Source of the DNA: Verrucomicrobiota bacterium
GTDB taxonomy: Bacteria > Verrucomicrobiota > Verrucomicrobiia > Chthoniobacterales > JAFAMB01
Assembly: GCA_019237325.1 (NCBI GenBank)
Contig: JAFAHI010000108.1
Coordinates: 1-32,524, forward strand
DNA length: 32,524 nt
Direction: 5' to 3'
Below, piece by piece: positions 2,143 through 28,966 of the stretch. Each line of letters begins with the position of its first letter. The first letter of the stretch is position 1. The notes beneath the pieces are model-generated. The model worked only from the letters and a program-made list of their open reading frames with translations. It made no database searches and was not told the origin of the DNA. A program made the translations under genes and the position numbers.

Positions 2143-2179
2143 TTCGATTCCACCGCCAATCTCTCAACCCCTAGACGCC

Positions 2180-3238: not shown

Positions 3239-3259
3239 CCGTTATTAATCAAATCAATT

Positions 3260-4849
3260 TTGCCCTTGGATACTGCAACCACAGTTTCAGGCTTAGCGGT
3301 TAGCGGACTGGTCAAAGAGTTCGACGGTATCCGCGCATTAAATGGCGTGAACCTGGAGGTCGCTCCCGGCACCGTACACGGTTTGGTGGGTCAGAACGGC
3401 GCCGGAAAATCGACGTTAATCAAAATCCTGGCGGGCATTTACCAACCCGATGCCGGCACGATTAGAATGAACGGTGCGATTCACTCTCGCTTGAATCCAC
3501 CTCTGGCCGAGAAATTAGGCATCCAATTTATACATCAAGAGCGTTTGCTGGTGCCGACACTCACGGTGGCAGAGTCACTTTACTTAGGGGCGGAGCCTCG
3601 TGTCGGATCTTGGATCAACCGGCGCTCGATGAACGAGCAGGCGGTCACCGCCTTGCAAGATTATTTCGGATTGGCCATATCGCCGAACAAATTGATCGGA
3701 GAATTAAGTGCCGCTCAACAGCAGACGATTCAGATTACGCGCGCTCTGTTGCGAAAAACATCGATCCTGGTCCTAGACGAACCGACGGCGACGTTGGTGA
3801 AACGAGAGGTCGACCTGCTTTTCCAGACTCTACAAAGACTGCGAGACGACGGGCTAACGGTTATCTATATTTCGCATTATCTGAACGAGATCGAGACGTT
3901 GTGCGACCGAGTTACGGTCCTTCGCAACGGCGTCGACGTCGCTACGGTTGAGCCTAGGCAGACCCCTATGTCTGCGATCGTTTCCCTGATGATCGATCGA
4001 AACATTGAGGACCTTTTCCAAAAACGTTCTGTGACCCTAGGTGAACCGGTTCTTGAGGTTAGGGAGTTGGCGCACCGAAACGCTTTTGCCGACGTCTCTT
4101 TCACCATCCGCCAAGGCGAGATTTTGGGTATCACCGGCTTGATTGGCTCCGGAGCCAAAGAAATGGTGCATTCACTATTTGGACTCGAACGCATCTCTAA
4201 GGGCCAGGTACTAATAGACCGCCGGGAGGTTCGTCTGTCGGCGCCTAGCCAAGCGGTCCGGAGCCGAATTGCTTATGTACCTGAACATCGACGCGAACAC
4301 GGGGTGGCGTTGAGTTTTAGCGTTCGCGAAAACATGACACTAGCCAGTCTCCGGGAGCATAGCAAGGCAGGCATCCTGATCGAGAGAAGCGAACGACGTA
4401 AGGTGGCTGAATTGATTGCTAAGTTGTCGCTATTGGCACCTAGCCAAGATGCTCCCGTGCGCCAACTTAGCGGTGGAAACCAGCAGAAGGTTGTTCTCGG
4501 TAAATGGCTGAGCCGGGAATCCGCTCTATACATTCTTGATGAACCGACCGTCGGTGTTGACATCGGAGCGAAGACCGAGATCTATCGCCTGATCGGTGAG
4601 TTAGCCGGCCAGGGTGCTGCTATCCTCGTTCTTTCCAGCGATCTATTGGAGTTGTTAGGTCTAGCCGATCGCATTCTGGTATTTTTCCGCGGCAAAGTCG
4701 TTCGTGAGCTTGATGCCTCCACCGCAGATCACGACGCGCTTTTGTCCGCGGTCACAGGAGTTAACGATCAGAAACCTGATAGGGCTCAAAAATCCACAGA
4801 TTACGCAGATTACACAGATTTAGTAGGCCAGAGCCGAAGAGTCGGATAG
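3260..4849 (+). CDS. Ribose-type ABC transporter ATP-binding protein (two nucleotide-binding domains)
   Basis: This is a fused double ATPase like RbsA/MglA (529 aa). Domain 1 has Walker A GQNGAGKST (residues 44-52), signature LSAAQ (149-153, a variant of LSGGQ) and Walker B ILVLDE (169-174). Domain 2 has a degenerate Walker A (GLIGSGAKE, about 293-301), signature LSGGNQQ (403-409) and Walker B YILDEPTVGVD (424-434). One good and one degenerate ATP site is normal for this family. No ATG is available at the N-terminus, so a TTG start at 3260 is assigned; no clear Shine-Dalgarno is present. The core appears to end near residue 502. Residues from about 511 (KSTDYADYTD) are encoded by a dispersed repeat, giving an acquired C-terminal tail. 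It energises the two permeases downstream. Confidence 0.9.
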   Translation: MPLDTATTVSGLAVSGLVKEFDGIRALNGVNLEVAPGTVHGLVGQNGAGKSTLIKILAGIYQPDAGTIRMNGAIHSRLNPPLAEKLGIQFIHQERLLVPTLTVAESLYLGAEPRVGSWINRRSMNEQAVTALQDYFGLAISPNKLIGELSAAQQQTIQITRALLRKTSILVLDEPTATLVKREVDLLFQTLQRLRDDGLTVIYISHYLNEIETLCDRVTVLRNGVDVATVEPRQTPMSAIVSLMIDRNIEDLFQKRSVTLGEPVLEVRELAHRNAFADVSFTIRQGEILGITGLIGSGAKEMVHSLFGLERISKGQVLIDRREVRLSAPSQAVRSRIAYVPEHRREHGVALSFSVRENMTLASLREHSKAGILIERSERRKVAELIAKLSLLAPSQDAPVRQLSGGNQQKVVLGKWLSRESALYILDEPTVGVDIGAKTEIYRLIGELAGQGAAILVLSSDLLELLGLADRILVFFRGKVVRELDASTADHDALLSAVTGVNDQKPDRAQKSTDYADYTDLVGQSRRVG

Positions 4850-4969
4850 TGAGCGACGTAGGTAAAGTTCCCGACCAAGTGCGACCTGATCCTCTTCTAA
4901 TCTGCAGTAATCCGCCTTCGCTACGCTATGGCGCGACTAGTTCTGAGGAATCTGCGGATCTTAAATTTG
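4787..4969 (+). repeat. Dispersed repeat with CAGATTACGCAGATT-type inverted ends
   Basis: The left end (4787-4822) carries CCACAGATTACGCAGATTAC followed by ACAGATTT. The right end (4897-4969) carries TCTGCAGTAATCC and GAGGAATCTGCGGATCTTAA, inverted versions of the same units. The element overlaps the 3' end of the ABC ATPase gene and fills the gap before the first permease. It also holds CTTCGCTACGCTATGGCGCG, a module partly shared with the spacer at 24390-24415. A related copy is at 13410-13550. Such units are short, non-coding and spread by an unknown route. Confidence 0.7.
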
Positions 4970-4986
4970 TTTGTGGGGAAAACCGT

Positions 4987-5991
4987 ATGTCAACTTCGAT
5001 ACTAACGGAACATCCGGTCCAGGAAAGCAGGCGAACGATCTGGAACTCACAGCTGCTCGTTCGATTAAGCTCGTTGCTCGCTTTTGTCGGGGTCATGATT
5101 TACTTCAGTTTGGCCGCTCCGTTATTTCTTAGTTACTCAAATGTATTGAACGTCGTGCAACAATCGGCGGTTCTAGGGGTGTTGGCGTTCGGAATGACTA
5201 CGGTTTTCATTTCTGGCGGCGCCCACGTCATTTCGGGTGGGATTGATCTATCGGCCGCCAGCAATATGGGCCTAAGTGCGGCGATCTATGCCAGCATCAT
5301 CCAAGCCGGTGGCACCGATTGGATCGCATTGCCGGTGACGTTATTGACCGGTCTGATTATCGGCGCAGTCAACGCTGGAGCCATTGTCGGGCTAAAAATC
5401 TTTCCGCTGTTAGCGACGTTGGCGACAATGAATATCTGTGCCGGTTTTGAATTAGTCCTCACCCAAAATACGGTGGTTCCCGCGGCGAGCCCGTTACTAA
5501 CCGCGGTAGCAGCGACCGGTTCATTCGCTGTGCCGAATATCGTCTATATCTTCTTTTGCTTAGCTTTTTTTTTGATAATCCTGATCGAGGCTACACCGTT
5601 CGGCCTCCGATTATATGCGGTTGGAGGGTTTCGGGAAGCAGCGATAGCCGCGGGTATCCGAGTGAATCGCGACGTGAGCGCCAGCTACTTGATCAGCGGC
5701 GTGTGTGGCTCAGTTGCAGCGATCCTCTCACTGTCACTGCTGAACGGAAGCTCGCCAGGCGCCGGTGAGATACTCTTATCTGTGGTATTGGTCGCGTTAC
5801 TAGGCGTCATCGTCTCCCGGCGAAGTGTACCCACGATTTCAGGAACGCTCATTAGCTCCTTGTTCATTGGATTCCTGGTGAACGGATTTCAACTGACCAA
5901 CGTGTCGAGCTACTGGGTAAACGGTGTCCAAGGCGGATTGATCCTTCTAGTGGTTGCCGGTAGCTCATTTTCTCGAAGAGCAGCTTACTAA
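4987..5991 (+). CDS. Ribose-type ABC transporter permease 1
   Basis: This 334-residue polytopic membrane protein belongs to the BPD_transp_2/RbsC family. It has about eight to ten hydrophobic segments and the family signature region GGIDLSAASNMGLSA. It forms the channel with the second permease and the double ATPase. The frame is open back to a GTG at 4849, but that 46-codon extension is mostly repeat sequence. The ATG at 4987, with GGGG eight bases upstream and the normal family N-terminus (short polar stretch, then a first membrane helix), is the better start. It is separated from the next gene by 15 bases. Confidence 0.9.
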   Translation: MSTSILTEHPVQESRRTIWNSQLLVRLSSLLAFVGVMIYFSLAAPLFLSYSNVLNVVQQSAVLGVLAFGMTTVFISGGAHVISGGIDLSAASNMGLSAAIYASIIQAGGTDWIALPVTLLTGLIIGAVNAGAIVGLKIFPLLATLATMNICAGFELVLTQNTVVPAASPLLTAVAATGSFAVPNIVYIFFCLAFFLIILIEATPFGLRLYAVGGFREAAIAAGIRVNRDVSASYLISGVCGSVAAILSLSLLNGSSPGAGEILLSVVLVALLGVIVSRRSVPTISGTLISSLFIGFLVNGFQLTNVSSYWVNGVQGGLILLVVAGSSFSRRAAY

Positions 5992-6006
5992 AACCGATCT
6001 TAGTCT

Positions 6007-6999
6007 ATGGCTTCTGCAATTACATCCGCACATGACCCCGCTCGACGCCGCGTCACTCGATGGATTCTGCGGAATAGCTTGCTGGCTGGCTTTGTCCTGG
6101 TGTTCGCGGCGTTAGGTGTCGCCGCTCCCGGCTTTCTGACCTGGAACAATCTGGTCAGCGTGATTTTGAACGAGTTTACATTGGCCGCCATTATCTCGCT
6201 GGGAATGACCTTGGTGATTTCGGCTGGAGGGATCGATTTGTCCGTCGGAAGCGCCGCGGACATTGCTAGTCTCGCGTTCATCGGTCTGGTGAGTGTACAC
6301 CAACCATTCAGGCTTGCAGTGATTGCTGGGCTATCCGGCGCGCTGTCGGTCGGAGCAGTGAACGCATCACTGATCGCCGGCATACGGATTTCTCCCCTCT
6401 TGGCAACTCTCAGCACTCTTTTTATCTCAACCAGCGTTCAACAGCTTGCTTCCAACGGCGGTCAACCCATCTATCTCATCTCAGGCACGCTTCCGGAGGC
6501 GTTTTATTTTCTCGGACGCGGCCAATTGTTCGGTGTTCCTATGCAGATCTACATCGTGACGGTCCTGGCCATCATTTTTTCTATTATTCTGCACAAGAGT
6601 AATTTCGGTCGTTACGTTTTCGCTTTAGGCGCCCAACCGGGTGTGGCTTGGTACTCGGGCATCCGAGTTTCGTCAACTTCCGCACTGGTCTACATCTTAT
6701 CCGCTCTCGTTTGCGGCGTCGCAGGAATTCTGCTTTCGGTCACCGTTAAAGCTTATGTTCCCCAATCTGGGAACGCCTATTTGCTTTGGACGATTGGTGC
6801 AGTTTTTATTGGAACAACGCTGCATTCGGAAGGCAGGCCGTCGGTAGCCGGCACTCTTTTGGGTGTCTTGTTGCTCAGTATCGTCCGGAATGGTCTTCTA
6901 TTGATCGGTTGGAATTTCTATTGGCAACAGGTGGCAACCGGTCTGCTGATTTTTGCGATTCTAGCTTTCAGCGGTAGCCGCTCCCGAGAAGCGAGTTAG
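6007..6999 (+). CDS. Ribose-type ABC transporter permease 2
   Basis: This is a second BPD_transp_2/RbsC-family permease of 330 residues, paralogous to the preceding one. It has the signature SAGGIDLSVGSAADIASL and many hydrophobic helices. Importers with two different RbsC-type permeases are known (for example AI-2/Lsr-like systems), so a heterodimeric channel is inferred. It is the last gene of the operon. A weak hairpin with a short T tract follows at 7068-7089. Confidence 0.9.
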   Translation: MASAITSAHDPARRRVTRWILRNSLLAGFVLVFAALGVAAPGFLTWNNLVSVILNEFTLAAIISLGMTLVISAGGIDLSVGSAADIASLAFIGLVSVHQPFRLAVIAGLSGALSVGAVNASLIAGIRISPLLATLSTLFISTSVQQLASNGGQPIYLISGTLPEAFYFLGRGQLFGVPMQIYIVTVLAIIFSIILHKSNFGRYVFALGAQPGVAWYSGIRVSSTSALVYILSALVCGVAGILLSVTVKAYVPQSGNAYLLWTIGAVFIGTTLHSEGRPSVAGTLLGVLLLSIVRNGLLLIGWNFYWQQVATGLLIFAILAFSGSRSREAS

Positions 7000-7185: not shown

Positions 7186-7833
7186 CTACTTTGCCGCGGC
7201 TTCCGCCACGAAAGATCCGGCAGCCAATAGATGCCGACGAAGTGCGTCTTTCGCTGCTCGTAAGTTTCGCTTTTTACAATGGTCAAAGATTTCCCGGTGT
7301 GCCGCCTGGCATTGTTTGAGATGGGCTGGCGTACTCATCTGAAGATAGTAACCGCGGTTGGTGAGAGTCCTCAGGGAATTGATTAACTCGAACAACCTTC
7401 CCTTATTAGCCGGCGCGTAAAGCGCGGCGTGAAACTCGCGGTCAAACTCGCCCAACTGTGCCGGTTCTGTCTCTAGCTCAAACTCACGCAGCCAGCGTTC
7501 TGCTCTGGCCAAGCTCTGAGCATTATGATGGTGAAAGGCTAACCGGAGAGCTTCGAGCTCAAGCAGGACGCGAATTTCGTAGGTCTCAAGGATTTCGTCC
7601 GGGGTAGGATTCGCCACGAACGAACCTTTACTGGGCACGATGTGGAGCAACCCTTCGGCTTGTAACAGATTCATCGCATCTCGGACCGGGATCCGGCTAA
7701 CGCCGAACCGAGCAGCGATTTCTTCCTGAGGGACGGCCTGGCCAGGGGCGAATTCGCCGTTAAGAATCGCGAGACGAAGCGCATCAGCGACCTGATCAGC
7801 AGCGCTGGAGATAGACTGGTTTGACAGAGGCAT
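7186..7833 (-). CDS. GntR-family transcriptional regulator, FadR/FCD subfamily
   Basis: This 215-residue regulator has an N-terminal winged helix-turn-helix (about residues 12-75, with VPQEEIAARFGVSRIPVRDA and the wing IVPSKGSFV). It is followed by an all-helical FCD ligand-binding domain. FCD metal-binding residues are all present: D131, H135 (FDREFHAAL), H179 (AHREI) and H201 (RRHLL). FCD regulators usually repress catabolic or uptake genes and release DNA on binding a small carboxylate-like ligand. The gene converges on the monooxygenase/ABC operon and has a perfect palindrome 8 bases upstream of its start, so autoregulation is likely. Control of the neighbouring operon is inferred; that operon's promoter is outside the window. 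Confidence 0.9.
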   Translation of the reverse strand: MPLSNQSISSAADQVADALRLAILNGEFAPGQAVPQEEIAARFGVSRIPVRDAMNLLQAEGLLHIVPSKGSFVANPTPDEILETYEIRVLLELEALRLAFHHHNAQSLARAERWLREFELETEPAQLGEFDREFHAALYAPANKGRLFELINSLRTLTNRGYYLQMSTPAHLKQCQAAHREIFDHCKKRNLRAAKDALRRHLLAAGSFVAEAAAK

Positions 7834-13639: not shown

Positions 13640-14731
13640 TCATGCGCTCGACTGAGACGATCCTTTTACCAGCACCATCTTGGCGAGTGGGATTAGCATC
13701 GGTTCGGGAGCGACCTTTAGACGCCCAATCATTCGTGCTTCCATCCGGTCAATGAACTCGGCTGCGCGACCCTCGTGATCATCCAGGCTAGCGGCAAGGG
13801 TCGGGCATACTGAAGCGCGAGAAAAGGCAGCCCACCGAGCGGCATACTTCCTGGCGTCACCGTGGCTCCGGAATTCTGTCCAGATGCGATCTTCACCATA
13901 AAAGACGTCAATTTCCTCCAGGGTGAGACCGGCAAAACTCCCGCTTCCAACAAATGGCGCCATGAAATCCTGCCGGCTTCGGCCAACGGTTGGAATCACC
14001 ATGCGGCGCGCTTCCTCCTTACTAATAAAGACCTCATCTACCAGATCGAGCACGGCTCCGTAGATAGCGGCGACAGCCGGCCTATATCCGAAGTCGCCAT
14101 GATGATCGAGCGCCATACTCAGCACAACTAGCCGGCCCCCAGGGCTTAGTTCGGCTGCACGATGAACCAGAAAACACCGCCAATCGTCCGCCGCCTGTTG
14201 ACAAAAAGCGGCTCGGGCAGCGGCATCCTGACTATAAGCTATCTGCACTTGGTCAGGGATGACGCCGGGGATCCGGCTTAGCCATTGTACGGCCCAAGAA
14301 CTCCAACCTAGGGTCACGCTGGAAGAAGGCAGAATTTGTTCGTAAAACGATCTTCCAACCGCACACGGGAATACGGTGGGATCGGCGCGTGAATAGCTGT
14401 CAGGATCCGAGGCCAGGATCTGAAAAAGGGCAGTGAAGTCGTTGCCCGGCAAATCGGTATGCACGACCGAAACCGCGCGATCAGGGCCGAGCCTATCCCG
14501 CAAAACCCTGATTGCAGCTGCCATTGGACCGAGTGAGTTACGCCCTTCCGAAGAGCCGTAATCCGCTATCACTACCGTTTCCGGCGGAAGCGGCAATTCA
14601 ACCTCTCTGGCAGCTTTTTCAAGCAACGGTACGGCCGGCGATGAACCAGTAGCCTGTACTCGCGAGCTCCGATTGTAAGCTCCGTGTCCCTCCATGGGTG
14701 CGGGTCCTTGTACTTGAGAGGACTCAGCCAT
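13640..14731 (-). CDS. SABATH-family SAM-dependent carboxyl methyltransferase
   Basis: This 363-residue enzyme matches the SABATH (Methyltransf_7) pattern known from plant salicylate/jasmonate/indole-acetate methyltransferases. SAM-binding elements are IADYGSSEGRNSL (D57, G59) and HTDLPGNDF (91-99). The family block SFY...SSWAVQWLSRIPG spans 128-156. The glutamine at 26 (SSRVQ) and tryptophan at 150 sit where plant enzymes contact the substrate carboxylate (known for SAMT; alignment here is by eye). It should make a methyl ester or N-methyl product. The start overlaps the end of the upstream transporter gene by 8 bases (ATGGCTGA), so the two are translationally coupled. A later Met at residue 13 is an alternative start. 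Confidence 0.85.
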   Translation of the reverse strand: MAESSQVQGPAPMEGHGAYNRSSRVQATGSSPAVPLLEKAAREVELPLPPETVVIADYGSSEGRNSLGPMAAAIRVLRDRLGPDRAVSVVHTDLPGNDFTALFQILASDPDSYSRADPTVFPCAVGRSFYEQILPSSSVTLGWSSWAVQWLSRIPGVIPDQVQIAYSQDAAARAAFCQQAADDWRCFLVHRAAELSPGGRLVVLSMALDHHGDFGYRPAVAAIYGAVLDLVDEVFISKEEARRMVIPTVGRSRQDFMAPFVGSGSFAGLTLEEIDVFYGEDRIWTEFRSHGDARKYAARWAAFSRASVCPTLAASLDDHEGRAAEFIDRMEARMIGRLKVAPEPMLIPLAKMVLVKGSSQSSA

Positions 14732-15686
14732 TTCGATTATACGCCTGCACGCTAGGCTTCAGTAACATCACCAAGAGAACACCCACAAAAATGAAAAATG
14801 CCCCGACCAAATGGTAAGAAACCAAGCGTTCGCCAAGAAAAAAGTAAGCGAGGACTGCGACGAAGACCGTTTGTAGATAAAGAAAGACACCGGCCCGCGA
14901 TGCGCCCAACGCTTGAACGCTCAAGTTGAACAAATAGTACATAAGGGCGCCGCCGGGGCCAGCGGTGTAAATCAAAGCCAACAACCCTTTCGCATTTAGA
15001 GCGGTCCGGTCGTCGTGGATGAGTTCCCAAGCGTAGAAAGGAATGGCCGCCGCAACGCCTGCTCCCAACAGCACGACCAAAAGCGGCAAACCCGGGAGCT
15101 CATACTTCGCCTTCCGCAACAAAACGGTATACAGAGCAAAGGCGATGGCGGCACCGACCACAAAGAGCTCTCCAACATTTAGATCTAGACGGAGCAAGGC
15201 AGACAAATCTCCCCGGGTCACAATGATAGCCATCCCGATAAAAGCGATCATTGAACCGAAAAATTGCCAGGCACCAACCGGCTCATTCAACAAGAAGCGC
15301 GCCAGAATCATCGTCATCACAGGCATCAATGCGATGATCAATCCGGCATTAATCGCGGTCGTATAGTTTAGCCCCATGTAGATGAGGCCCTGAGTAATGG
15401 ATAGACCCAGGCCGCCGATTATCAGGAGTGAAAACCATCTTTGTCTAATCAGGCCGATCATGGCAGGCCAATGCCGCCGGGTAATCGGAAGTAGGATAAG
15501 ACCGGCCATAAAGACTCGCCAAAAACAGAGCGCCCAAGGCGGCATCTCTGTGGCCACCGCCTTGGCAGCAATATAAACGCCGGCTGACAATAGCCAGCAT
15601 AGGGTAGCTAAGACCGCGGCAGCATGTGTACTCGGGCTAGCTGGTACACCAATCGCGGTCTCTTTTGGTGCTGGTGCTGCCGGCAT
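14724..15686 (-). CDS. DMT-superfamily (EamA) transporter
   Basis: This 320-residue membrane protein has about ten hydrophobic helices arranged as two EamA halves (helices from about residue 22 onward, with the duplicated half starting near residue 175). Motifs such as ALCFWRVFMAGLILLPITRR and YTTAINAGLIIALMPVMTMI are typical of drug/metabolite transporters (YdcZ/RhaT-like group). It is likely an inner-membrane exporter or permease for a small molecule. The 3' end overlaps the SABATH methyltransferase start, so the substrate may be the methylated product or its precursor. It is divergent from the acyl-adenylating ligase. Confidence 0.88.
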   Translation of the reverse strand: MPAAPAPKETAIGVPASPSTHAAAVLATLCWLLSAGVYIAAKAVATEMPPWALCFWRVFMAGLILLPITRRHWPAMIGLIRQRWFSLLIIGGLGLSITQGLIYMGLNYTTAINAGLIIALMPVMTMILARFLLNEPVGAWQFFGSMIAFIGMAIIVTRGDLSALLRLDLNVGELFVVGAAIAFALYTVLLRKAKYELPGLPLLVVLLGAGVAAAIPFYAWELIHDDRTALNAKGLLALIYTAGPGGALMYYLFNLSVQALGASRAGVFLYLQTVFVAVLAYFFLGERLVSYHLVGAFFIFVGVLLVMLLKPSVQAYNRNG

Positions 15687-15791
15687 AGTTATCGGAAGAA
15701 TCGGGCGCCGTATCAGTTAGGCGATTTCGAACCCGAAGGACCTCGAACCTTTAAATTCTCTATCCTCCAGCTGTATCCATTTGCTCTGTTG

Positions 15792-17441
15792 ATGGACAGT
15801 AAAAAGCGCGTGGGGACGCGCGCCCTCCCCAAAATGGGCTCGCAAGACATGGCCGCCCTTGAAAAACATGTCGGCTGCAGTCACTTTCCCGTTTCAGAAA
15901 ACCCCCGCCCGCTGGCAAATATGTTGGATTTACTCCTAGAAGATACCGGCACAAAGTTTCCCCTTAACACTGCTCTGATTTTCGAAGGTAAAAGCTACAC
16001 CTATGCAGACCTCCGCAGACTTACAAGAAGCTTATCCGCCGCGCTTCTCGAACAGAGAGTTCAATCCGGAGATCGAGTAGCATTCCTCCTTCCGAACTGC
16101 TTGGAGATCGTCCTTTGCTATTATGCTTGTTTTGAGATCGGCGCCATCGCTGTGCCGCTGAACATACGATTCTCGGCGGAGCTGCTTCAGTATGCGATTA
16201 ATCATAGTGGCGCTTCTGTTCTCATCAGCGAACCAAATCTCTTTTCGCAGATTGTAAAAAACCGGTCGTTGCTTCCGGAAGTTGAAAGATACTATCTGAC
16301 ATCACGTGACTCTGAATTCGAAGGAGCCAGGCCTTTCGCTGAATTACTGAACCCGACATCTGATTTGACGCCAAAGACGCCTTCTGGGAACGGACCCGCT
16401 GCTATCTATTATACTTCGGGCACCACCGGTCTGCCAAAAGGGGTAGTCCATTCTCATTTCAGCTTGGCGCAAGCCACCCAAAATCAAATTGATCAGATCG
16501 CTATCACCTCAGCAGACACAACGCTGATCTTGTTCCCGATCTGCTATTTGATCGGTTTCGGCTCTCAAATTCTACCCTTTCACCAATGCGGAGCTACCTG
16601 TGTGTTGCTACCTCGGTTCGAACCCGAAGCTGCCTTGGCCGCCATCGCTACCTACAAGCCAACCAAGATCTACGGGTTTCCTAAGCTGTACAACGATCTG
16701 ATCAACTGCCCGGACGTCGCGAATTACAATGTTAAGTCAGTCAATTTCTGTTTCTCAGCCGGGGAAGCCATTGCCGTCGCTATCCAAGACCGGTTTCAGC
16801 GACTCTTTGGTCTGGAGATCACCGAGGGCTGCGGTATGACTGAGCTCCAGATTTACAGCATGAATTCTCCTTACGGCCAGAAAAGGAAAGGCTCGATTGG
16901 AAAACCGATCGCCGGCATGGAGCTGGCGTTGATTGATGATTCCGGACACTCGATTTCAACTGCCCGCCAGATCGGGGAAATGATCGTTCGTGGAGGAAGT
17001 ATGGCCTCTGGTTACTGGCGCGATCGCCAGCTCACGGCGACAACGATTAGAGACGGCTGGTTTCACACCGGTGATTTGGCATATCGGGATGAACAAGGTT
17101 TCTATTGGTTTGTCAGCCGCAAGTCTGAAATCATTCGACATGAGGCCGGACTAGTATCACCCATCGAGGTGGAAGGAGCGTTATACGCGCATCCGGCAGT
17201 GCTGGAGGCCGGCGTTATCGGGGTAGCTGCCCCATTCGAAGGCGAAGTCCCGCAGGCCTACGTTGTGCTGCACCCGGAGAACCCTCCTGCGACGGAGTCA
17301 CAACTGATCGATTTCGTGAGGAGCCGGCTCCCCGGCTACAAGGCGCCGGCTCGGATCATTTTCACTGATAACTTGCCTCACGGACCTACTGGCAAAATCG
17401 ATCGTAGGACTTTGAAAGAAAGAGCGTTAGCTCCCCATTAG
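15792..17441 (+). CDS. AMP-dependent acid-CoA ligase (ANL superfamily)
   Basis: From this ATG the product is 549 residues. It has the P-loop YYTSGTTGLPKG (about 206-217), the EGCGMTE block (about 345), the GDLAYRDEQGFYWF hinge region and the catalytic lysine in GPTGKIDRR near the C-terminus. ANL enzymes activate a carboxylic acid with ATP and usually transfer it to CoA. The hinge motif reads SRKSEIIRHEAGLVSPIEVE, in which the usual glycines after IIR are replaced. Start choice is uncertain: ATGs at 15792, 15834 and 15921 are all possible, and none has a clear ribosome binding site; the domain proper begins near MLDLLLED at 15921. It is divergent from the exporter/SABATH pair, and its 3' end overlaps the next minus-strand gene by 15 bases. 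Confidence 0.85.
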   Translation: MDSKKRVGTRALPKMGSQDMAALEKHVGCSHFPVSENPRPLANMLDLLLEDTGTKFPLNTALIFEGKSYTYADLRRLTRSLSAALLEQRVQSGDRVAFLLPNCLEIVLCYYACFEIGAIAVPLNIRFSAELLQYAINHSGASVLISEPNLFSQIVKNRSLLPEVERYYLTSRDSEFEGARPFAELLNPTSDLTPKTPSGNGPAAIYYTSGTTGLPKGVVHSHFSLAQATQNQIDQIAITSADTTLILFPICYLIGFGSQILPFHQCGATCVLLPRFEPEAALAAIATYKPTKIYGFPKLYNDLINCPDVANYNVKSVNFCFSAGEAIAVAIQDRFQRLFGLEITEGCGMTELQIYSMNSPYGQKRKGSIGKPIAGMELALIDDSGHSISTARQIGEMIVRGGSMASGYWRDRQLTATTIRDGWFHTGDLAYRDEQGFYWFVSRKSEIIRHEAGLVSPIEVEGALYAHPAVLEAGVIGVAAPFEGEVPQAYVVLHPENPPATESQLIDFVRSRLPGYKAPARIIFTDNLPHGPTGKIDRRTLKERALAPH

Positions 17442-17780
17442 CTTCTGCCGCCGCTCCGCTTGCAGTGCCTCCAATTTCTTGGATTGTTCGGGAGTTAAAA
17501 CTTTGCTAGCCGAAGCTTTGAAATTCGCTTGGATCGCTTCTAGCTTACGCAGCTTTTGCAACTTGCCCGCGGAGGTATCCGCCTTTAGCGCTTTCAGTGA
17601 CTTATCGCGTTGCGCTACGATCGGAGTTAGCGCTTGCTGTTGTTTTTCATTTAGCTGCAGCTTTTCCGTAAGCTCCTTCATTTGTATTGCTTCCATCATT
17701 TGGCCCATGGCAAAGCTCGAGAAGCAAAAAACCGCCATCGCGAGTATAACTAATTGCTTGATAGCATTGATTGATTTCAT
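17427..17780 (-). CDS. Small exported helical protein (Spy/LTxxQ-like)
   Basis: This 117-residue protein has a signal peptide (about residues 1-26, MKSINAIKQLVILAMAVFCF... ending FAMGQ). The mature part is charged and helical with a repeated spacing of L-x-x-Q/E: ELTEKLQLNEKQQQALTPIV and ASKVLTPEQSKKLEALQAER. This is the pattern of Spy/CpxP-like LTxxQ periplasmic proteins, some of which act as chaperones or sense envelope stress. It is the last gene of the minus-strand group that holds the two RND pumps, so co-expression with efflux is plausible. Its stop overlaps the 3' end of the convergent ligase gene. Confidence 0.75.
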   Translation of the reverse strand: MKSINAIKQLVILAMAVFCFSSFAMGQMMEAIQMKELTEKLQLNEKQQQALTPIVAQRDKSLKALKADTSAGKLQKLRKLEAIQANFKASASKVLTPEQSKKLEALQAERRQKLMGS

Positions 17781-17843: not shown

Positions 17844-20800
17844 TTAGCCGCCCCTTTCCGACGGCTTTCCCCGGAGGTTAACTAACCTCTCAACCAGGCA
17901 GAAGCTGACCGGGATCAGGAAAATCGCGATAGCGCAGGCCGCGAACATTCCACCAATCACGGTCGTGCCCATGACTTGCCGGGCGATCGCGCCAGAGCCG
18001 GAAGCCATCCAAAGGGGCACGCATCCGAGAATGAAGGCAAAAGAGGTCATCAAAATCGGCCGGAGCCGCAATCGGGCCGCAGCGAGAGCCGCATCCACCA
18101 ACGGAGTGCCCCATTCATATTCGACCTTAGCAAACTCAACGATCAAAATGGCGTTCTTGGCGACCAGTCCGATGATCATAACCAGCCCGATTTGGACAAA
18201 AACGTTGTTCTCGATTTGCACGAGATAGGAAGGCAGAAACAACCCACTAATTAACCGCCGCAGATAGAGCATGCCAAATGCCCCGAAAACCGCGATTGGT
18301 GTGCTCAATAGTACGCTGAATGGGAGCGACCAACTTTCATACAACGCCGCTAGAATCAGAAACACAAACAAAAGCGAAAAACTAAAGATGGCTGCCGCTG
18401 GCACACCTTGTTGGGTTTGTTTCTCCTGGAACGACATGCCCAGATAATCATATCCCATCTCCGGGGGCATGGTCTGGGCAAAGACCTCTTCCAGCGCCTT
18501 CATCGCCTGATCGGAAGTGTAGCCAGAAGCGATCGCCGCATTGATTTGGGCGGAGCTATATAGATTGTAACGTAAGGTAAACTCAGGCCCAGTGCGTCGC
18601 TCGATTTGGGTGAGGGTGCTTAACGGCACAATGTCATTCTGGGAATTGCGAACATAGAACTCGCTCAGGTTCTCCGCGTTTGTCCGATAGTCGCCTTCCG
18701 CTTGGACGTAAACCTGCCACTGACGCCCAAACCGGTTGAAATAATTAATAAATGTTCCGCCCATGAAGGCTTGAACCGTTTGATACACGTCGCCGATCGC
18801 GATGCCTTGTTTCAGGGTTTTATCTATATCGACGTCGACGTAAGTCTGCGGGACGTTAGGTTGGAACGTTGTACTGACCTGGGCTAGCTCGGGTCGTTTC
18901 CGGGCCGCGCTAAGGAAAGTGTCGACATTCCGGGCGAGAAGCTCACCATCTCCACCGGAGCGATCTTCAAGCACGAAGCTAATATCGCCGGACGCACCGG
19001 CTCCCGGAATTGCCGGTGGCGAAAAAGCGAAAGCGACCGCTTCTGGCAGCTGCGATAGTTCCCTGTTAACTTCGGCTTTGATCCCTTGATAGGTTTCGTT
19101 TCGTTGTTCGCGGTCTTCCCATGGGGTCAAGGACACGAACAAAAACGCGCTATAGGTACTTTGGATGCCGCTCAGTAAGCTCGAGCCAATGGTAGTGGTG
19201 ACGTACCCAACTCCGGGTGTGCGCGACAGCAGCTCTTCGATCTTGCGGCAAACCTCGTCGGTGCGCTGCAACGACGCTGCCTTGGGAAGTTGCAAATTGA
19301 TGTAAAAATATCCCTGATCTTCATCCGGCAGGAAGCTAGTTGGGATCTTTCTACCAAACAGAAATGCCGCGCCCCCAAAAGCCACGATCAGGACGATGGC
19401 TAATCCGGTCCGCCGGATGAATAGAGCCGAAATCCGGACATATCCTTCGGTGGCGCGCCCAAACATCTGATTGAACCAGCGAAAGAAGGCTCCCAGTGGT
19501 CCTGTACCTTTCCGGCGCGGTCGAAGTAAGAGAGCACATAGCGCTGGACTCAGGGTCAAAGCGTTAAAAGCTGAGATTAACACCGAGATGGCAATGGTCA
19601 CGGCAAACTGCTGATAGAGTCTCCCCGTGATCCCCGGAATGAAAGCAGTCGGCACAAAGACCGATGCTAAGACCAACGCGACACCAACGACCGGGCCGGT
19701 AATCTCCTTCATCGCCTTGAGGGTGGCATCCTTAGCGTAGAGTCCACTGTCGATATGATGTTCCACCGCTTCGACTACCACTATGGCGTCGTCAACTACC
19801 AGGCCGATAGCCAAAACCAGGCCAAATAGCGAAAGTGTGTTAATTGAAAAACCTAGCAGCGGAAAAAACATAAAAGTGCCGATTAATGAAACCGGCACCG
19901 CTAATAACGGGATGAGGGTGGCTCGCCAGCTCTGCAGAAAGAGGTAGACGACCAGGATCACCAGAACGAGGGCTTCCACTAACGTTTTGATCATTTCTTC
20001 GATGCCGGCTGTAACCGGCTTCGTGGTATCCAGCGAAATCACATAATCTACGCCTCGAGGAAATCGTTGTCTCAGTTGGGCCATTAGTTTTTTGACGCCA
20101 TTCGCCGCAGCTAGCGCATTGGTACCAGGAAGTTGATAGACCGACACCACCGCGGCAGGCTTACCATTAAATCTACCTCTGGTGTTGTACGCTTGCGCAC
20201 CAAATTCCACCCGTCCGACATCTTTAAGTCGCACCGTTCCCCCGCCGGTCTCTTGTCGCAGAAGAATGTTTCCAAACTCTTCGGGACTGGTTAAGCGCCC
20301 TTGCGCCAGTGCGGTGTAGGTAAATTCTTGTCCATGAGGAACGGGTTCACTGCCAATCTGGCCGGCAGAATTAACCGTATTTTGCGCTTGGACCGCGTTG
20401 ACTATATCCGAAACGGTCATATTTAACCTGGCCAGTTGATCCGGTTTAAGCCACAAGCGCATCGCATATTGGCCGGCGCCCGAGATTTGGACATTGGAGA
20501 TGCCACGCACCCGGGTTAGCGCATCATTCAGATTGATATAGGCATAGTTCGACAGGAAGAGGGCATCCCGACTTCCATCCGGCGAATAGAGAGCGATTAC
20601 CAGGAGCGGCGCTGCTAAAGATTTCTGCACGGTCACTCCGAGATTGTTAACCGCGCTGGGCAACTGGGATGCGGCTTGCGTTTCTCGCATCTGAGCCAGG
20701 ATCTGATCCGTGTTTGGATCCGACGCAAGATCGAAGTCGACAGTCAACACCATTTGGCCGCTGTTAGCGTTGACCGAATACATATAGTTCATGTTGTCGA

Positions 20801-21014
20801 CGCCGCTCATCTGTTGCTCAATCGGCGTAGCCACCGCCTGCTCTATCGTGCGCGCATCCGCGCCGGTATAATTAGCCGTGATCACAGTTTGAGGGGTGAC
20901 GATGTCCGGGAACAGCGAAACCGGTAGAATCTTTGTCGAGATACCTCCGACGATGACCGTTAGAATTGAAATAACGATCGCGACGATCGGCCGGTTAATG
21001 AAAAACTTAGACAT
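17844..21014 (-). CDS. RND efflux pump inner-membrane protein, HAE1/AcrB type (second of two)
   Basis: This 1056-residue protein has the full AcrB-type architecture: helix at the N-terminus (SKFFINRPIVAIVISILTV), two large periplasmic loops and twelve helices in total. Proton-relay residues are kept: the Asp pair in GLVVDDAIVVVEAVE (equivalent to AcrB D407/D408) and the Lys in GLVAKNAILIVEFAK (AcrB K940). It should work as a homotrimer or, with its neighbour, a heterotrimer pumping hydrophobic compounds via a periplasmic adaptor and outer-membrane channel. The ATG at 21014 gives the standard family start; the longer frame to 21140 is spacer repeat. It is closely related to the pump encoded next to it. 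Confidence 0.93.
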   Translation of the reverse strand: MSKFFINRPIVAIVISILTVIVGGISTKILPVSLFPDIVTPQTVITANYTGADARTIEQAVATPIEQQMSGVDNMNYMYSVNANSGQMVLTVDFDLASDPNTDQILAQMRETQAASQLPSAVNNLGVTVQKSLAAPLLVIALYSPDGSRDALFLSNYAYINLNDALTRVRGISNVQISGAGQYAMRLWLKPDQLARLNMTVSDIVNAVQAQNTVNSAGQIGSEPVPHGQEFTYTALAQGRLTSPEEFGNILLRQETGGGTVRLKDVGRVEFGAQAYNTRGRFNGKPAAVVSVYQLPGTNALAAANGVKKLMAQLRQRFPRGVDYVISLDTTKPVTAGIEEMIKTLVEALVLVILVVYLFLQSWRATLIPLLAVPVSLIGTFMFFPLLGFSINTLSLFGLVLAIGLVVDDAIVVVEAVEHHIDSGLYAKDATLKAMKEITGPVVGVALVLASVFVPTAFIPGITGRLYQQFAVTIAISVLISAFNALTLSPALCALLLRPRRKGTGPLGAFFRWFNQMFGRATEGYVRISALFIRRTGLAIVLIVAFGGAAFLFGRKIPTSFLPDEDQGYFYINLQLPKAASLQRTDEVCRKIEELLSRTPGVGYVTTTIGSSLLSGIQSTYSAFLFVSLTPWEDREQRNETYQGIKAEVNRELSQLPEAVAFAFSPPAIPGAGASGDISFVLEDRSGGDGELLARNVDTFLSAARKRPELAQVSTTFQPNVPQTYVDVDIDKTLKQGIAIGDVYQTVQAFMGGTFINYFNRFGRQWQVYVQAEGDYRTNAENLSEFYVRNSQNDIVPLSTLTQIERRTGPEFTLRYNLYSSAQINAAIASGYTSDQAMKALEEVFAQTMPPEMGYDYLGMSFQEKQTQQGVPAAAIFSFSLLFVFLILAALYESWSLPFSVLLSTPIAVFGAFGMLYLRRLISGLFLPSYLVQIENNVFVQIGLVMIIGLVAKNAILIVEFAKVEYEWGTPLVDAALAAARLRLRPILMTSFAFILGCVPLWMASGSGAIARQVMGTTVIGGMFAACAIAIFLIPVSFCLVERLVNLRGKPSERGG

Positions 21015-21021
21015 CAAGGGA

Positions 21022-21070
21022 TGTTTCGGGCTACGGGTTGCTGGTTGCGAGTTACGCGTTACGAGTTGGG
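21022..21070 (-). repeat. Degenerate GAGTTACGCGTTACGAG spacer repeat between two pump genes
   Basis: The plus strand carries GGTTGCTGGTTGCGAGTTAC followed by GCGTTACGAGTTGG, that is, repeated GGTTGC, GAGTTAC and GTTACGAG units. It lies in the 100-base gap between the two RND genes, just upstream of the second pump's start. Similar units from memory occur in intergenic DNA of related bacteria; no other copy was found in this window. Confidence 0.45.
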
Positions 21071-21114
21071 CGTCAGGGTGTGCACTTGGATGTGACCTAT
21101 AGGGCTCATGCGAC

Positions 21115-24100
21115 TTATGGGTGGTTGAGTGGGTACTCACCGCGGTTCTTACGTCCTACGAAGGCAGCTAATGTTTCGACCATACAAAAGCCGGCTGGAA
21201 TTAAGAAAATGGCTAGTAGGCTGGCTGCGAGCATTCCTCCGATGACCCCGGTACCCAATACTTGCCGGGCGACTGCGCCTGACCCTGAAGCCAGGGCGAG
21301 AGGAATACAGCCAACGATAAAGGCGAATGACGTCATCACGATCGGACGCAGACGCAAACGCGCACCGGCCAAAGCCGCATCTACCAGCGTAGCGCCGCGC
21401 GCATACTCAACCTTGGCAAATTCGACAATCAAAATGGCGTTCTTAGCCACCAGACCGATAATCATGACCAGACCGATCTGTGCATAAACGTTGTTCTCGA
21501 TCTGCACGAAAATCGGCGGCAGAAATGCACCGGTTACAACCCGGCGCAGGTACAGCGCGCCTAGGGAACCGAAAACGGCGATCGGCGTACTCAGCAGTAC
21601 ACTCACCGGAAGCCACCAACTCTCATAGAGAGCTGCTAGTATCAGAAATACGAACAACAAAGAAAAAGCAAAGACAACCGCCGGCGGCGCCGCTTGCTGA
21701 GCCTTTTTCTCTTGGAACGACATGCCCAAATAGTCATATCCCATCTCCGCCGGCATCGTCTGAGCAAAGACCCTTTCTAATGCGTTCATGACCTCGGCCG
21801 AGCTGTAACCCGGCGCCGGGATCGCTTGAATTTGAGCCGAGCGAAACAAATTGTAGCGCATGGTAAATTCAGGACCGAATTCTCTGCGAACCCGCACTAC
21901 TGAACAAAGAGGTACCGCGTCGTTGTTTCGGTTTCTGACATAGAATTGGCCAACCTGATCGGCTCTGGTCCGAGATTCGCCGTCGGCCTGCACGTACACT
22001 TGCCACTGACGCCCGAAGCGGTTGAAGTAGTTGACGAAAGAGCCACCCAGAAAACTTTGCAGGGTGGTGTAAATATCGGTCAGCGCGACCCCCTGGCTAA
22101 GGGCTTTGGCCCGATCGACCTCAAAATAAACCTGCGGCACGCTGGGAAGCAGGGTGGTAATTACTCGCCCGAGCTCAGGCTGCTTACGGGCAGCATTCAA
22201 GAAAACATCAACATTGTGGGCTAGAAACTCTGCGCCTCTATCGATGCGATTCTCAAGCACAAAGGATACACCTCCAGCCACACCGGCCCCCGGAATGGCC
22301 GGAGGAGAAAATCCGAAGACGGTCCCTTCCGGAAATCCGAGGAGCTTCAGATTAAGCAGTCCTTTAAGAGCTTGATATTGTTCAGTTAGCTTTTTCCGTT
22401 CTCCCCAAGAATTCAGAGTTACAAAAAAGAAACCGCTATAGGTAGTTTGGACATTACTTAACAAACTGAACCCGGCGATCGCGGTGGTGTAGCGTACGCC
22501 TGGAGTTTGAGCGAGCAATGCTTCAATCTTGCGGCAGGCCTCATTGGTACGTTGCAGGGAGGCGGCTTGGGGAAGTTGGAGATTGATGTAGAAATAGCCT
22601 TGATCCTCGTCCGGCAGAAAGCTGGTCGGCAGCTGTTGGCCGAAAAAGATTGCCACCGCACCAAACCCCACTAGTAAGGTCAGGGCTAGACCGGTTCGAC
22701 GGATCAGCAGCCCCGAGACGCGTACATATCCGTCCGTAACCCGGCTGAAGAGCCGGTTAAACCAACCAAAGAATATTTCGAGCAGCCCGGTTCGCGCGTG
22801 CCGGGGTCGCAATAGCAGCGCACACAGGGCTGGGCTAAGTGTCAGGGCGTTGAATGCGGAAAAGAGAACCGAGACCGCGATAGTAACTGCGAACTGTTGA
22901 TACAGCCGGCCGGTGATACCCGGGATGAAAGCCGTTGGTACAAAAACCGAGCCGAGCACAAGGGCTACCCCAATCACCGGGGCCGTGATTTCTTTCATCG
23001 CTGCGCGGGTAGCTTCTTTCGGAGCCAACCCTGCCTGGATGTATCGCTCCACCGCTTCGACTACTACGATAGCATCATCGACTACCAACCCAATCGCGAG
23101 CACCAATCCAAACAGGGAAAGCGTGTTGATCGAAAACCCGAGCAGAGGGAAGAAAATAAAAGTGCCAATCAATGATACCGGGACCGCCAGCAACGGAATG
23201 AGCGTGGCCCTCCAACTCTGCAGAAAGAGATAAACGACGATCACCACTAACCCGAGTGCCTCTAACAAGGTCTTGACCATCTCCTCAATGCCTGCGGTTA
23301 CCGGCAGGGTCGTATCGAGTGCGATCACATAGTCCATTCCGCGCGGAAATCGCGTCTTCAACTCGGCCATCCGTTGCTTAACGCCTTTCGCAGCCGTCAA
23401 TCCATTGGTGCCCGGAAGTTGATAGATCGCGAGAACGGCGCTGGGCTGACCATTCAATCGGGCGTAGGTATTGTAGACTTGTGAGCCCAGCTCGACACTG
23501 GCCACATCTCGAATACGGACAACCCCACCGTTCGTCGATTGACGCACGATGATATTGCCGAATTGCTCCGGAGTCGTCAGCAGTCCACGCGATACGGCCA
23601 TATAAGTGAATTCCTGACCGTTGGGCACTGGTTCGCCGCCGGCGAAACCGACCGGATTCACCGCGTTCTGCTGTTGAACCGCGTTAGTAATGTCCGAAAC
23701 CGTTATGTTCAATCGAGCTAACTGTTCGGGCTTCAGCCAAATGCGGATCGCGTACTGACCTGACCCAAACACCTGCACGTTCGAGATACCCGGGACTCGA
23801 GTTAGCTGATCGATCAGATTGATGTACCCGTAATTCGCCAAAAACTGTGAGCTATAGCGGCCATCTGGGGAACGGAGCGCGATTAACATGAGCGGCGCGG
23901 CAAACGATTTCTGGACACTAATTCCTTGCGACACCGCTTCTGGCGGCAGCTGAGCGCTGGCCTGCGATTGCCGCATCTGCGTCAAAACCTGGTCGGTTTT
24001 CGGGTCGCTGTTTTCATCGAAATTCACCCTCAACTTCATCTGGCCGGTATTCGAGTTGAGGGAATACATGTAGTTCAGCTTATCGACTCCGCTGACCTGC

Positions 24101-24300
24101 TGCTCGATCGGCGTTGCCAGGGATTGCTCGACCGTGACAGCATCTGAACCCGGGAAGGTGGCCGAAACTACTATTTCAGGAGGAGTTATGTTCGGATAGA
24201 GCGAGACCGGCAAAAATAACAGGCAGGTCAGACCAATTACTATTGTCAAAATCGAAAGGACAATGGCAAGAATCGGCCGATGAATGAAAAATCCGGACAT
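21115..24300 (-). CDS. RND efflux pump inner-membrane protein, HAE1/AcrB type (first of two)
   Basis: This 1061-residue protein is a full-length AcrB-type pump with the same plan as the next gene downstream. It has the GLVVDDAIVVVEAVE relay pair, the GLVAKNAILIVEFAK lysine and long identical stretches with its neighbour, such as RATLIPLLAVPVSLIGTF. Differences concentrate in the periplasmic loops, which set substrate preference. It follows the adaptor gene by 219 bases, which contain a repeat. Tandem paralogues are reminiscent of MdtBC-type heterotrimers, but both copies keep all proton-relay residues, so independent pumps sharing an adaptor are equally possible. Confidence 0.93.
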   Translation of the reverse strand: MSGFFIHRPILAIVLSILTIVIGLTCLLFLPVSLYPNITPPEIVVSATFPGSDAVTVEQSLATPIEQQVSGVDKLNYMYSLNSNTGQMKLRVNFDENSDPKTDQVLTQMRQSQASAQLPPEAVSQGISVQKSFAAPLMLIALRSPDGRYSSQFLANYGYINLIDQLTRVPGISNVQVFGSGQYAIRIWLKPEQLARLNITVSDITNAVQQQNAVNPVGFAGGEPVPNGQEFTYMAVSRGLLTTPEQFGNIIVRQSTNGGVVRIRDVASVELGSQVYNTYARLNGQPSAVLAIYQLPGTNGLTAAKGVKQRMAELKTRFPRGMDYVIALDTTLPVTAGIEEMVKTLLEALGLVVIVVYLFLQSWRATLIPLLAVPVSLIGTFIFFPLLGFSINTLSLFGLVLAIGLVVDDAIVVVEAVERYIQAGLAPKEATRAAMKEITAPVIGVALVLGSVFVPTAFIPGITGRLYQQFAVTIAVSVLFSAFNALTLSPALCALLLRPRHARTGLLEIFFGWFNRLFSRVTDGYVRVSGLLIRRTGLALTLLVGFGAVAIFFGQQLPTSFLPDEDQGYFYINLQLPQAASLQRTNEACRKIEALLAQTPGVRYTTAIAGFSLLSNVQTTYSGFFFVTLNSWGERKKLTEQYQALKGLLNLKLLGFPEGTVFGFSPPAIPGAGVAGGVSFVLENRIDRGAEFLAHNVDVFLNAARKQPELGRVITTLLPSVPQVYFEVDRAKALSQGVALTDIYTTLQSFLGGSFVNYFNRFGRQWQVYVQADGESRTRADQVGQFYVRNRNNDAVPLCSVVRVRREFGPEFTMRYNLFRSAQIQAIPAPGYSSAEVMNALERVFAQTMPAEMGYDYLGMSFQEKKAQQAAPPAVVFAFSLLFVFLILAALYESWWLPVSVLLSTPIAVFGSLGALYLRRVVTGAFLPPIFVQIENNVYAQIGLVMIIGLVAKNAILIVEFAKVEYARGATLVDAALAGARLRLRPIVMTSFAFIVGCIPLALASGSGAVARQVLGTGVIGGMLAASLLAIFLIPAGFCMVETLAAFVGRKNRGEYPLNHP

Positions 24301-24311
24301 AGAGTCAGTGC

Positions 24312-24490
24312 TTCGGTACGGATGAGCTCCGGCTCATCCGGATTTCGATTTGCGACTGATTTCCTACTAGCCCCGCGGATGAGCAGGCCGCCGTCGCTTC
24401 GCTATGGCGCGCCCTCGTCGAAAGGTGTTTCAAAGTGACAGAGCTAAGCCGCGACGTAGCTTGGCGTAGTCGGGAGCTCATCCCTACCGG
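24312..24490. repeat. GGATGAGCTC-type element with inverted ends
   Basis: The left end (24316-24340) carries GGATGAGCTCCGGCTCATCC, itself a hairpin with a 9-bp stem. The right end (24471-24490) is GGAGCTCATCCCTACCGG, which inverts the left end with a few mismatches. The interior includes GTCGCTTCGCTATGGCGCGC, shared with the 4787-4969 element. It lies between the adaptor and first pump gene. It is a non-coding MITE- or REP-like unit; related ends occur at 29077-29159 and 29767-29798. Confidence 0.65.
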
Positions 24491-24519
24491 ACAACCTTTC
24501 GAGCTCAGCACAGAACTCA

Positions 24520-25713
24520 TTATTGCGATTGGGCCGAATTCTCCGGCTTCCATTCAGTTGGTTTAACCAGTTGGTTGTCGCGCACTTTTTGTAAGCCTTC
24601 GACGACGACCCGCTCCCCCGGTTTCAATCCATCTTCCACTACCCAGAGAGAGCCGACCCGTTCCCCAACCTTGACTGTCCGGATCTCTGCTTTGTTGTCG
24701 GCTCCAACAACGGCTAGCTCAAAAGTAGTTTGCAACTCGTTTACCGCGCGTTGCGGAACGAGCAACGCTCCCTGCAGGGTCCTGACGGTTACTCGAACGC
24801 GCACGAATTGGCCGGGTCGCAAAATGTTGTCCGGATTAGGAAACAAAGCGGCCAGACGGATCGTGCCGGTCTGGTTGTCTACCTGGCGGTCGACGGCGGA
24901 AAACTTTCCCTGACGCTGGTACAATGTACCGTCAGCCAAAATGATCTGGACCGGCGGCGCCGGCGCGGGATTGGTACGGTTCGCGTCGATTCGCTCCTGC
25001 GCGACTTTCAAGTAGTCCTGCTCACTGATCTGAAAATAGACCTTTATCGGGTCCACAGTCGAAATCGTCGCGAGCGGATTAGCATCACCTGGGCCCACGA
25101 GATCACCAATCCCCGGGTTCGCTATCCCGGCAACGCCGCCAATGGGAGCTGTGATTTTTGTCCATTCCAAATTGACCTCTGCCTGCCGCAGGGTCGCCTG
25201 CTCAGCTTTTACCGCGGCTTTCGCTGCGGTATTGGATTGGACCGCGTTGTCCCGGTTCTGCGCGCTTTCGACTTTTTGTTCGAAGAGCTGCGTTTCTCGT
25301 TGTTCGGTCTGTTCGGTTTGAAGCTGATTCGCCTCAGCTTGCGCCAGGCCCGCTTTTGCCTGCTCGACCGCCGCTTCGTAGACGGTCGGGTCGATCTGGA
25401 ACAGCAGGTCACCGGGTTTGACCACCATTCCCTCTTTGTAATTTTGGGAGATCACGTATCCGGAAACACGCGCCCGGACGTCTGCGTCAACCGATCCATC
25501 CAAAGATCCAATCCATTCTCGCACTATCGGAACATCTTGCTGGATAGGCTCTGTAACCAGGACCTCCGGAGGTCCTGAAATAATGTCGTTGGTTCCGGAT
25601 TTTGAGCATCCTGCCAAAACCGCGACCATCGCGAGAAGAACGACGGAATCGAACGAGAAACGTGCAGCCCGTGCATCCGCCACGCAGCGGCTTAAAAACC
25701 AAGGGTAACTCAT
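24520..25713 (-). CDS. RND periplasmic adaptor (membrane fusion protein), lipoprotein
   Basis: This 397-residue protein has a lipobox LAGC with the lipidation cysteine at 36, after a hydrophobic segment. Adaptor domains follow: a biotinyl/lipoyl strand set (DADVRARVSGYV, KEGMVVKPGDLLFQID), a helical hairpin (about 100-160, rich in A, E, Q and K), a second lipoyl half (WTKITAPIGGVAG) and beta-barrel and proximal domains (VKVGERVGSLWVVEDGLKPGERVVVEGLQKV). It links the inner-membrane pumps to an outer-membrane channel. The ATG at 25713 is preferred over a TTG at 25749, which would overlap the previous gene. No outer-membrane factor gene is nearby, so a channel encoded elsewhere must be used. Confidence 0.92.
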   Translation of the reverse strand: MSYPWFLSRCVADARAARFSFDSVVLLAMVAVLAGCSKSGTNDIISGPPEVLVTEPIQQDVPIVREWIGSLDGSVDADVRARVSGYVISQNYKEGMVVKPGDLLFQIDPTVYEAAVEQAKAGLAQAEANQLQTEQTEQRETQLFEQKVESAQNRDNAVQSNTAAKAAVKAEQATLRQAEVNLEWTKITAPIGGVAGIANPGIGDLVGPGDANPLATISTVDPIKVYFQISEQDYLKVAQERIDANRTNPAPAPPVQIILADGTLYQRQGKFSAVDRQVDNQTGTIRLAALFPNPDNILRPGQFVRVRVTVRTLQGALLVPQRAVNELQTTFELAVVGADNKAEIRTVKVGERVGSLWVVEDGLKPGERVVVEGLQKVRDNQLVKPTEWKPENSAQSQ

Positions 25714-25736
25714 GCGTTTAAACCGGAGAACAAGAT

Positions 25737-26723
25737 TTAGTCGCTGCAAAGATAGTATTGGTCCTCGACTTTGATAACATCCGCCCTGGTATTGGTCGCG
25801 TAGCTGAGAGAAGCGCCCTCAATCGGCGCGAACTGTGGTTCGTTGTTATATTCAACCTTCACCTTTGACCCAGCTTCTGTTCGCTTCACCACCGCTGAGA
25901 CCGGAACTTGCGCGAGCAAAATGGCGTCTTCGCATTCCGGTGTACCCGGAACAGAAGCCAACACCTCGGCGGGGAAATTGCTGAAATCCGCGGGAAGCTT
26001 ACTAACCCCGCTCCAAGGACCGTCAAGTGAGTTAGCACTCAACCAGAGCTTGTCGACTAAGAGGTAGTATTTTGACGCAGCAGAATCGAAGAAGAGGTCC
26101 CAATTGGCATTGAGGACAAACTTCAGGTCAATCCCTTTAATGGGTCCTAGCACCGAATCGCCCTGAACGGTCAATAGGACCGCCGGTTCCGTACTTATCA
26201 TAATCGTCGGCGGGTCTGTCTTCACCGGCACTGTTTTAGCCTTTTCCTGGCTAGCCTGGACGCTGGTAATCAGCCGGTCGAGCGAGACAGTAAGAGGCTT
26301 GCCGGGGAACGTGGATTTAAGCAGCTCTTCCATCTTGGTCTCTTCGTCGTCGGACAGAGCGGGAAAACGAACGGCGGTTATTTCGATGTCGTCAATTAGA
26401 ACCGTGCGCGTTTCCACATTCGCCGTGGTTCGGCCTTTCAGTTCCTCAACCCCGACAGCAGGTTTGCCATCCTTCGGTGTAAGAACAAAGGCAAGCCGCG
26501 CTCGCAGTTCGCGGAAATCCTTCCACTCGTCGACCTGTGGTTGATAATAGACAAAACGAATCCCGTTGCGGGTAACTTCACGCGGCCATCCTGGATCAAG
26601 CTGTTTTGCGCCTGGCGACTCAGGCGAAGCTGGCTTCTCCGCCGCGAAAACGCCGACCGCGGCATGCATCCAGGAAACCCCGAGGAAAAGATGAAATCGA
26701 AAGAAGCGGGAGAACGGCTTCAT
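25737..26723 (-). CDS. Exported hypothetical protein, apparently C-terminally truncated
   Basis: This 328-residue protein has a signal peptide-like N-terminus (about residues 1-28, ending VFAAEKP). The mature part is rich in beta strands: PREVTRNGIRFVYYQPQVDEW, IDDIEITAVRFPAL, DLFFDSAASKYYLLVDKLWLSANSLDGPW and VIKVEDQYYLCSD. A 'YYLL...W...GPW' unit followed by a second YYL unit suggests repeated small beta modules. The protein stops at the second YYL unit, just where the GPW part of that unit would be expected, so the C-terminus may be lost. From memory similar proteins continue further with W-F and G-P-W modules (not checked). The stop is 24 bases before the adaptor gene, giving an operon-like arrangement. 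Function is unknown. Confidence 0.6.
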   Translation of the reverse strand: MKPFSRFFRFHLFLGVSWMHAAVGVFAAEKPASPESPGAKQLDPGWPREVTRNGIRFVYYQPQVDEWKDFRELRARLAFVLTPKDGKPAVGVEELKGRTTANVETRTVLIDDIEITAVRFPALSDDEETKMEELLKSTFPGKPLTVSLDRLITSVQASQEKAKTVPVKTDPPTIMISTEPAVLLTVQGDSVLGPIKGIDLKFVLNANWDLFFDSAASKYYLLVDKLWLSANSLDGPWSGVSKLPADFSNFPAEVLASVPGTPECEDAILLAQVPVSAVVKRTEAGSKVKVEYNNEPQFAPIEGASLSYATNTRADVIKVEDQYYLCSD

Positions 26724-28950: not shown

Positions 28951-28959
28951 AGCGAGCAT

Positions 28960-28966
28960 CCCTCTC
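28960..28966 (-). promoter_or_regulatory. Shine-Dalgarno deciding the PNGase A start
   Basis: GAGAGGG on the minus strand lies 9 bases before the ATG at 28950. Upstream ATGs at 28959 and 29007 have a Shine-Dalgarno that is too close or absent. Confidence 0.6.

Follow-up and report, generated by a model that had tools for sequence, protein, structure and literature searches.

To our knowledge, fatty acid methyltransferases of the SABATH family (FAMT type) have been characterised only in mycobacteria. Our search of the literature for bacterial SABATH enzymes found only the engineering of MmFAMT, the mycobacterial enzyme, and work on plants. The original descriptions of MmFAMT are those of Nawabi 2011 and of Petronikolou and Nair 2015 (cited in PMC9744835). 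According to this study, the enzyme methylates acids of C8, C10 and C12 as well as the corresponding 3-hydroxy acids, and results in P. putida led its authors to infer a competition between MmFAMT and CoA ligases for acids of medium chain length. The plant SABATH enzymes acting on salicylate (1M6E), indole-acetate (3B5I) and loganate (6C8R) share the superfamily fold and the carboxylate-binding Gln and Trp. Here, we describe a methyltransferase gene and its neighbours in a stretch of 32,524 nucleotides (the window). The window forms contig 296 in a draft genome (6.05 Mb, 785 contigs, 78% complete), and the genomes close to this one are metagenome-assembled Verrucomicrobiota.

The methyltransferase gene (13640-14731, minus strand) codes for a protein of 363 aa that matched Pfam Methyltransf_7 (PF03492) with an E value of 2e-35 and 123 bits, against a cut-off of 29.8, and it was the single Methyltransf_7 gene of the window genome. 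Its best match in the PDB was 5F2K, the octanoate complex of MmFAMT (phmmer E 7.7e-124; 58% identity over 354 aligned residues), whereas the match of the same protein to salicylate methyltransferase (SAMT, 1M6E) was far weaker (E 4.4e-17, about 28% identity). An AlphaFold model built from 18 aligned sequences (pLDDT 85.4, pTM 0.86) gave the same picture: 5F2K, 5F2N and 5F2O, which include MmFAMT complexes with octanoate and 3-hydroxydecanoate, ranked first in Foldseek (TM 0.91-0.92, 5F2K reaching 0.92), the next SABATH chains, from plant enzymes, had TM values of roughly 0.64-0.79, and the 29 best matches of the predicted structure were all chains of the SABATH family. In addition, the SAM-binding and carboxylate-binding residues were conserved. 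Sequence, residues and predicted fold thus bear out the SABATH assignment made in the preliminary description of this locus, and carboxyl methylation by this enzyme is likely.

The residues around the substrate point to the mycobacterial type of enzyme. In Clarkia SAMT the carboxylate is held by K10, Q25 and W151 (PMC13376665). The aligned SAMT fragment starts after K10, so that the comparison covers Q25 and W151, and both align with identical residues in the window enzyme, Q26 and W150. Y147 and M150 of SAMT are replaced by W146 and Q149 in the window enzyme. MmFAMT has the same two residues, numbered W151 and Q154, and neither varied among 50 compared sequences of the FAMT type, a set that counts the window and MmFAMT. 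Q154 is the residue mutated in 5F2O. At the position of SAMT Y255 both the window enzyme and MmFAMT have V. We take Y147, M150, W226 and Y255 of SAMT to form its aromatic substrate pocket. A pocket of this type is not kept in the window enzyme, which has W, Q and V at positions 147, 150 and 255, position 226 falling in an alignment gap. The pocket positions mapped from SAMT (window residues 26, 146, 149, 150, 206 and 249) were all identical between the window enzyme and MmFAMT. The preliminary description had suggested that the bacterium makes or modifies a hormone-like signal; this idea finds no support in an enzyme in which Y147, M150 and Y255 are replaced, and nothing at the locus points to plant-hormone chemistry.

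Because of the identity to MmFAMT, the structure match, the shared residues and the C8-C12 activity of MmFAMT, a fatty acid methyltransferase is the most likely function, and we consider it probable that the window gene encodes a bacterial fatty acid O-methyltransferase, as predicted from sequence and model. Such an enzyme would act on medium-chain fatty acids or 3-hydroxy acids, a chain-length range that we take over from MmFAMT. Its purpose would most plausibly be the disposal or masking of free fatty acids, or the making of a volatile.

A pattern-based scan of 84,980 bacterial and archaeal genomes found 49 bacterial relatives of the methyltransferase with 48-87% identity, a number that is a lower bound because the patterns of this one scan derive from the query. 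These relatives belong to Verrucomicrobiota, Pseudomonadota, Acidobacteriota and Actinomycetota (mostly Mycobacteriaceae), with one genome of Planctomycetota and one labelled as Bacillota. The earlier view that SABATH enzymes are rare in bacteria was broadly right: Methyltransf_7 went undetected in the 387 further genomes sampled from the phylum, although the single scan already brought up 49 loci. Within its own family the gene was present in 5 of 11 genomes (window genome counted). In the phylogenetic tree, the actinobacterial sequences and MmFAMT formed one well-supported group with the window sequence outside it; the latter clustered with the sequences of its two sister species (100/100) and, less firmly supported, lay close to other Verrucomicrobiota and a betaproteobacterial protein. 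Horizontal spread of the gene is plausible; the plasmid copies found were only three and distant (26-44% identity). Further matches to the methyltransferase were seen in one sister species (L054 and L055, on contigs C107 and C473 of genome G388), one of them with 55% identity and truncated by the end of its contig, the other with 31% identity. The first of these suggests a second FAMT-like gene in that species.

Upstream of the methyltransferase, and overlapping it by exactly 8 bp (14724-14731) as had been stated before, lies a gene for a membrane transporter of the EamA/DMT superfamily (14724-15686, minus strand; 320 aa). Its assignment to the DMT transporters also held, since the product matched Pfam EamA with two repeats (E 4.6e-42); no NCBIfam model was matched over its cut-off, and no solved relative was found by sequence. 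The nearest relatives found, with 54-62% identity, are located on Rhizobium and Phyllobacterium plasmids. Given the overlap of the two reading frames, the exporter gene is probably co-transcribed with the methyltransferase gene in the window species, and it need not carry the methyltransferase product. In this regard, fatty acid methyl esters are neutral and membrane-permeable, and therefore would not need an exporter.

The divergent gene encodes an AMP-forming acyl/aryl-CoA ligase with the two-domain architecture of PRK06187-like, benzoate- and anthranilate-CoA ligases (Pfam AMP-binding, E 1.7e-79; AMP-binding_C, E 4.9e-19). The domains and the orientation agree with the acid ligase described earlier; its start does not. 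We rejected the start at 15624 (605-aa ORF, 15624-17441), which on paper would overlap the exporter by 63 bp, because the part before about residue 87 has no homologous counterpart and the alignments with the two closest relatives set in around residues 87-93 of this ORF. An ATG at 15921 is common to the window and to the loci of these relatives (L002 and L003) and gives ligases of 506, 506 and 507 aa, respectively. With the ligase placed at 15921-17441 (plus strand, 506 aa), the divergent spacer measures 234 bp (15687-15920) and presumably holds the promoters of the exporter and methyltransferase genes and of the ligase. Among solved chains, anthranilate-, benzoate- and fatty-acyl-CoA ligases came closest, with about equal likeness to the fatty, benzoate and anthranilate types, and 107 NCBIfam ligase models were matched, none over its cut-off among the matches listed. 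If it took the same acids as the methyltransferase, the ligase would compete with it by activating them to CoA esters. The window genome has 29 first-look candidates for AMP-forming ligases of this type, and therefore one of them near the methyltransferase is unremarkable.

Convergent with the ligase is a gene for a small predicted protein of 117 aa (17427-17780, minus strand) without a Pfam match, which is 82-85% identical in L002 and L003. This gene is part of the adjacent RND efflux cluster and separate from the three-gene locus. The cluster comprises two tandem AcrB-type RND pump genes and a HlyD-type adaptor (17844-25749, minus strand; adaptor at 24520-25749), and a second genus of the family retains both pump genes in tandem. 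Elsewhere in the window, a luciferase-like monooxygenase, a periplasmic binding protein, a double ABC ATPase and two permeases follow in a row (757-6999, plus strand), with a GntR/FCD regulator on the opposite strand (7186-7833), and the run looks like an uptake and catabolic operon. Peptide N-glycanases of the PNGaseA family are known mainly from plants and fungi, and a bacterial copy of possible interest lies at 27169-29130 (minus strand; PF12222, E 1.2e-56). No phage families were found.

A search for the same gene order elsewhere, which the preliminary description had proposed as a check able to refute its idea, showed conservation inside one genus and none beyond it. The order ligase, exporter, methyltransferase beside the RND efflux cluster was also present in L002 and L003, assigned by identity to two further species of the window's genus. 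It is thus kept in three of the four species of this one genus, and only there. The 8-bp overlap itself is not conserved in L002 and L003. In 47 further loci (L004-L050), no relatives of the exporter or ligase were found near the methyltransferase by tblastn (E ≤ 0.01) and by phmmer (E ≤ 1, run over 831 kb of L002-L050), some flanks ending at contig ends. When neighbours were clustered, those that are widely shared occurred almost only among actinobacterial loci, and the neighbour genes of the window were not found near the mycobacterial FAMT relatives. In other genera of the family there were no close relatives of the ligase or exporter, not even in the genome that has a methyltransferase with 68% identity in a different context (locus L056 coincides with a portion of L004).

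These data fit, at about even odds in our judgement, a chance linkage of three genes that were separately acquired or rearranged and have stayed together since the ancestor of the genus because little time has passed. This explanation concerns the neighbourhood and is compatible with the fatty acid methyltransferase function. Besides the restriction to one genus, it is favoured by the ligase, for which 383 other genomes of the class gave no match at E ≤ 1e-90. Furthermore, its dS between the window and L002 is about 2.1, far above the 0.45-0.63 of the other two genes; this gap hints that the ligase has had a history of its own, although a dS near 2 is close to saturation. In a related genus (L067) the 117-aa gene and the RND pump are kept, and no ligase is seen beside them in the 380 bp before the contig end. 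On the other hand, two of the three species keep the exporter and methyltransferase tightly spaced (the 8-bp overlap in the window, about 17 bp apart in L002), and the fourth species lacks all three genes, although that genome is incomplete (89%) and has no near counterpart of the neighbouring RND pump either. Comparison between species shows purifying selection on all three genes (dN/dS 0.07-0.13; methyltransferase 0.10-0.12, exporter 0.12-0.13), and their arrangement here may therefore still have a meaning.

Regarding the substrate, the enzyme could perform the same chemistry on another hydrophobic acid, such as a branched, hydroxylated, polyketide or terpenoid one. We regard this as a minority possibility, against which stands the identity to MmFAMT at all the pocket positions mapped from SAMT. 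It draws on the part of the presumed tail pocket that does differ, in an enzyme with conserved carboxylate residues: the helix after the motif FGYRP reads AVAAIY in the window (residues 219-224) and MNDALV in MmFAMT, and because of this difference the chain length or the substrate could depart from that of MmFAMT. An identity of 58% also leaves room for a change of substrate, and the members of the family, found in several phyla, share no common neighbourhood. MmFAMT comes from another phylum, and the place of the window sequence outside the actinobacterial group that contains MmFAMT counts against the fatty acid reading.

The functional unit of methyltransferase, exporter and ligase put forward in the preliminary description, which would make, export and degrade a hormone-like signal or a methyl ester, such as one of salicylate, indole-acetate or benzoate, is very improbable: the 8-bp overlap, the divergent aryl/acyl-type ligase, an order kept in three species and the purifying selection on all the genes speak for it, but this order is confined to the genus and no exporter or ligase relative was found at the 47 other loci, the exporter and methyltransferase of L003 are about 840 bp apart and split by a broken antisense fragment, SAMT residues Y147, M150 and Y255 are not kept, a permeable ester does not require a transporter, and two 60%-identical relatives of the exporter examined on rhizobial plasmids, although of the same family, show neither a SABATH gene nor a ligase in the annotation next to them. 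The interrupted fragment in L003 (9160-10000) resembles, as judged by eye, a beta-lactamase-type serine hydrolase (SxxK, motif SITK). Equally improbable in our estimate is a genus-specific switch on one acid pool, in which the FAMT-type enzyme, helped by the co-transcribed DMT exporter, would make a volatile or membrane-permeable methyl ester that serves as a soil signal or antagonist, and the ligase would reclaim the acid.

Taken with the fatty acid methyltransferase function that we favour, the window enzyme is an ordinary addition to the known bacterial FAMT family, placed in a genus-specific neighbourhood. It extends this family to soil Verrucomicrobiota, with close relatives also in Proteobacteria, Acidobacteria, Planctomycetes and a Bacillota-labelled genome.
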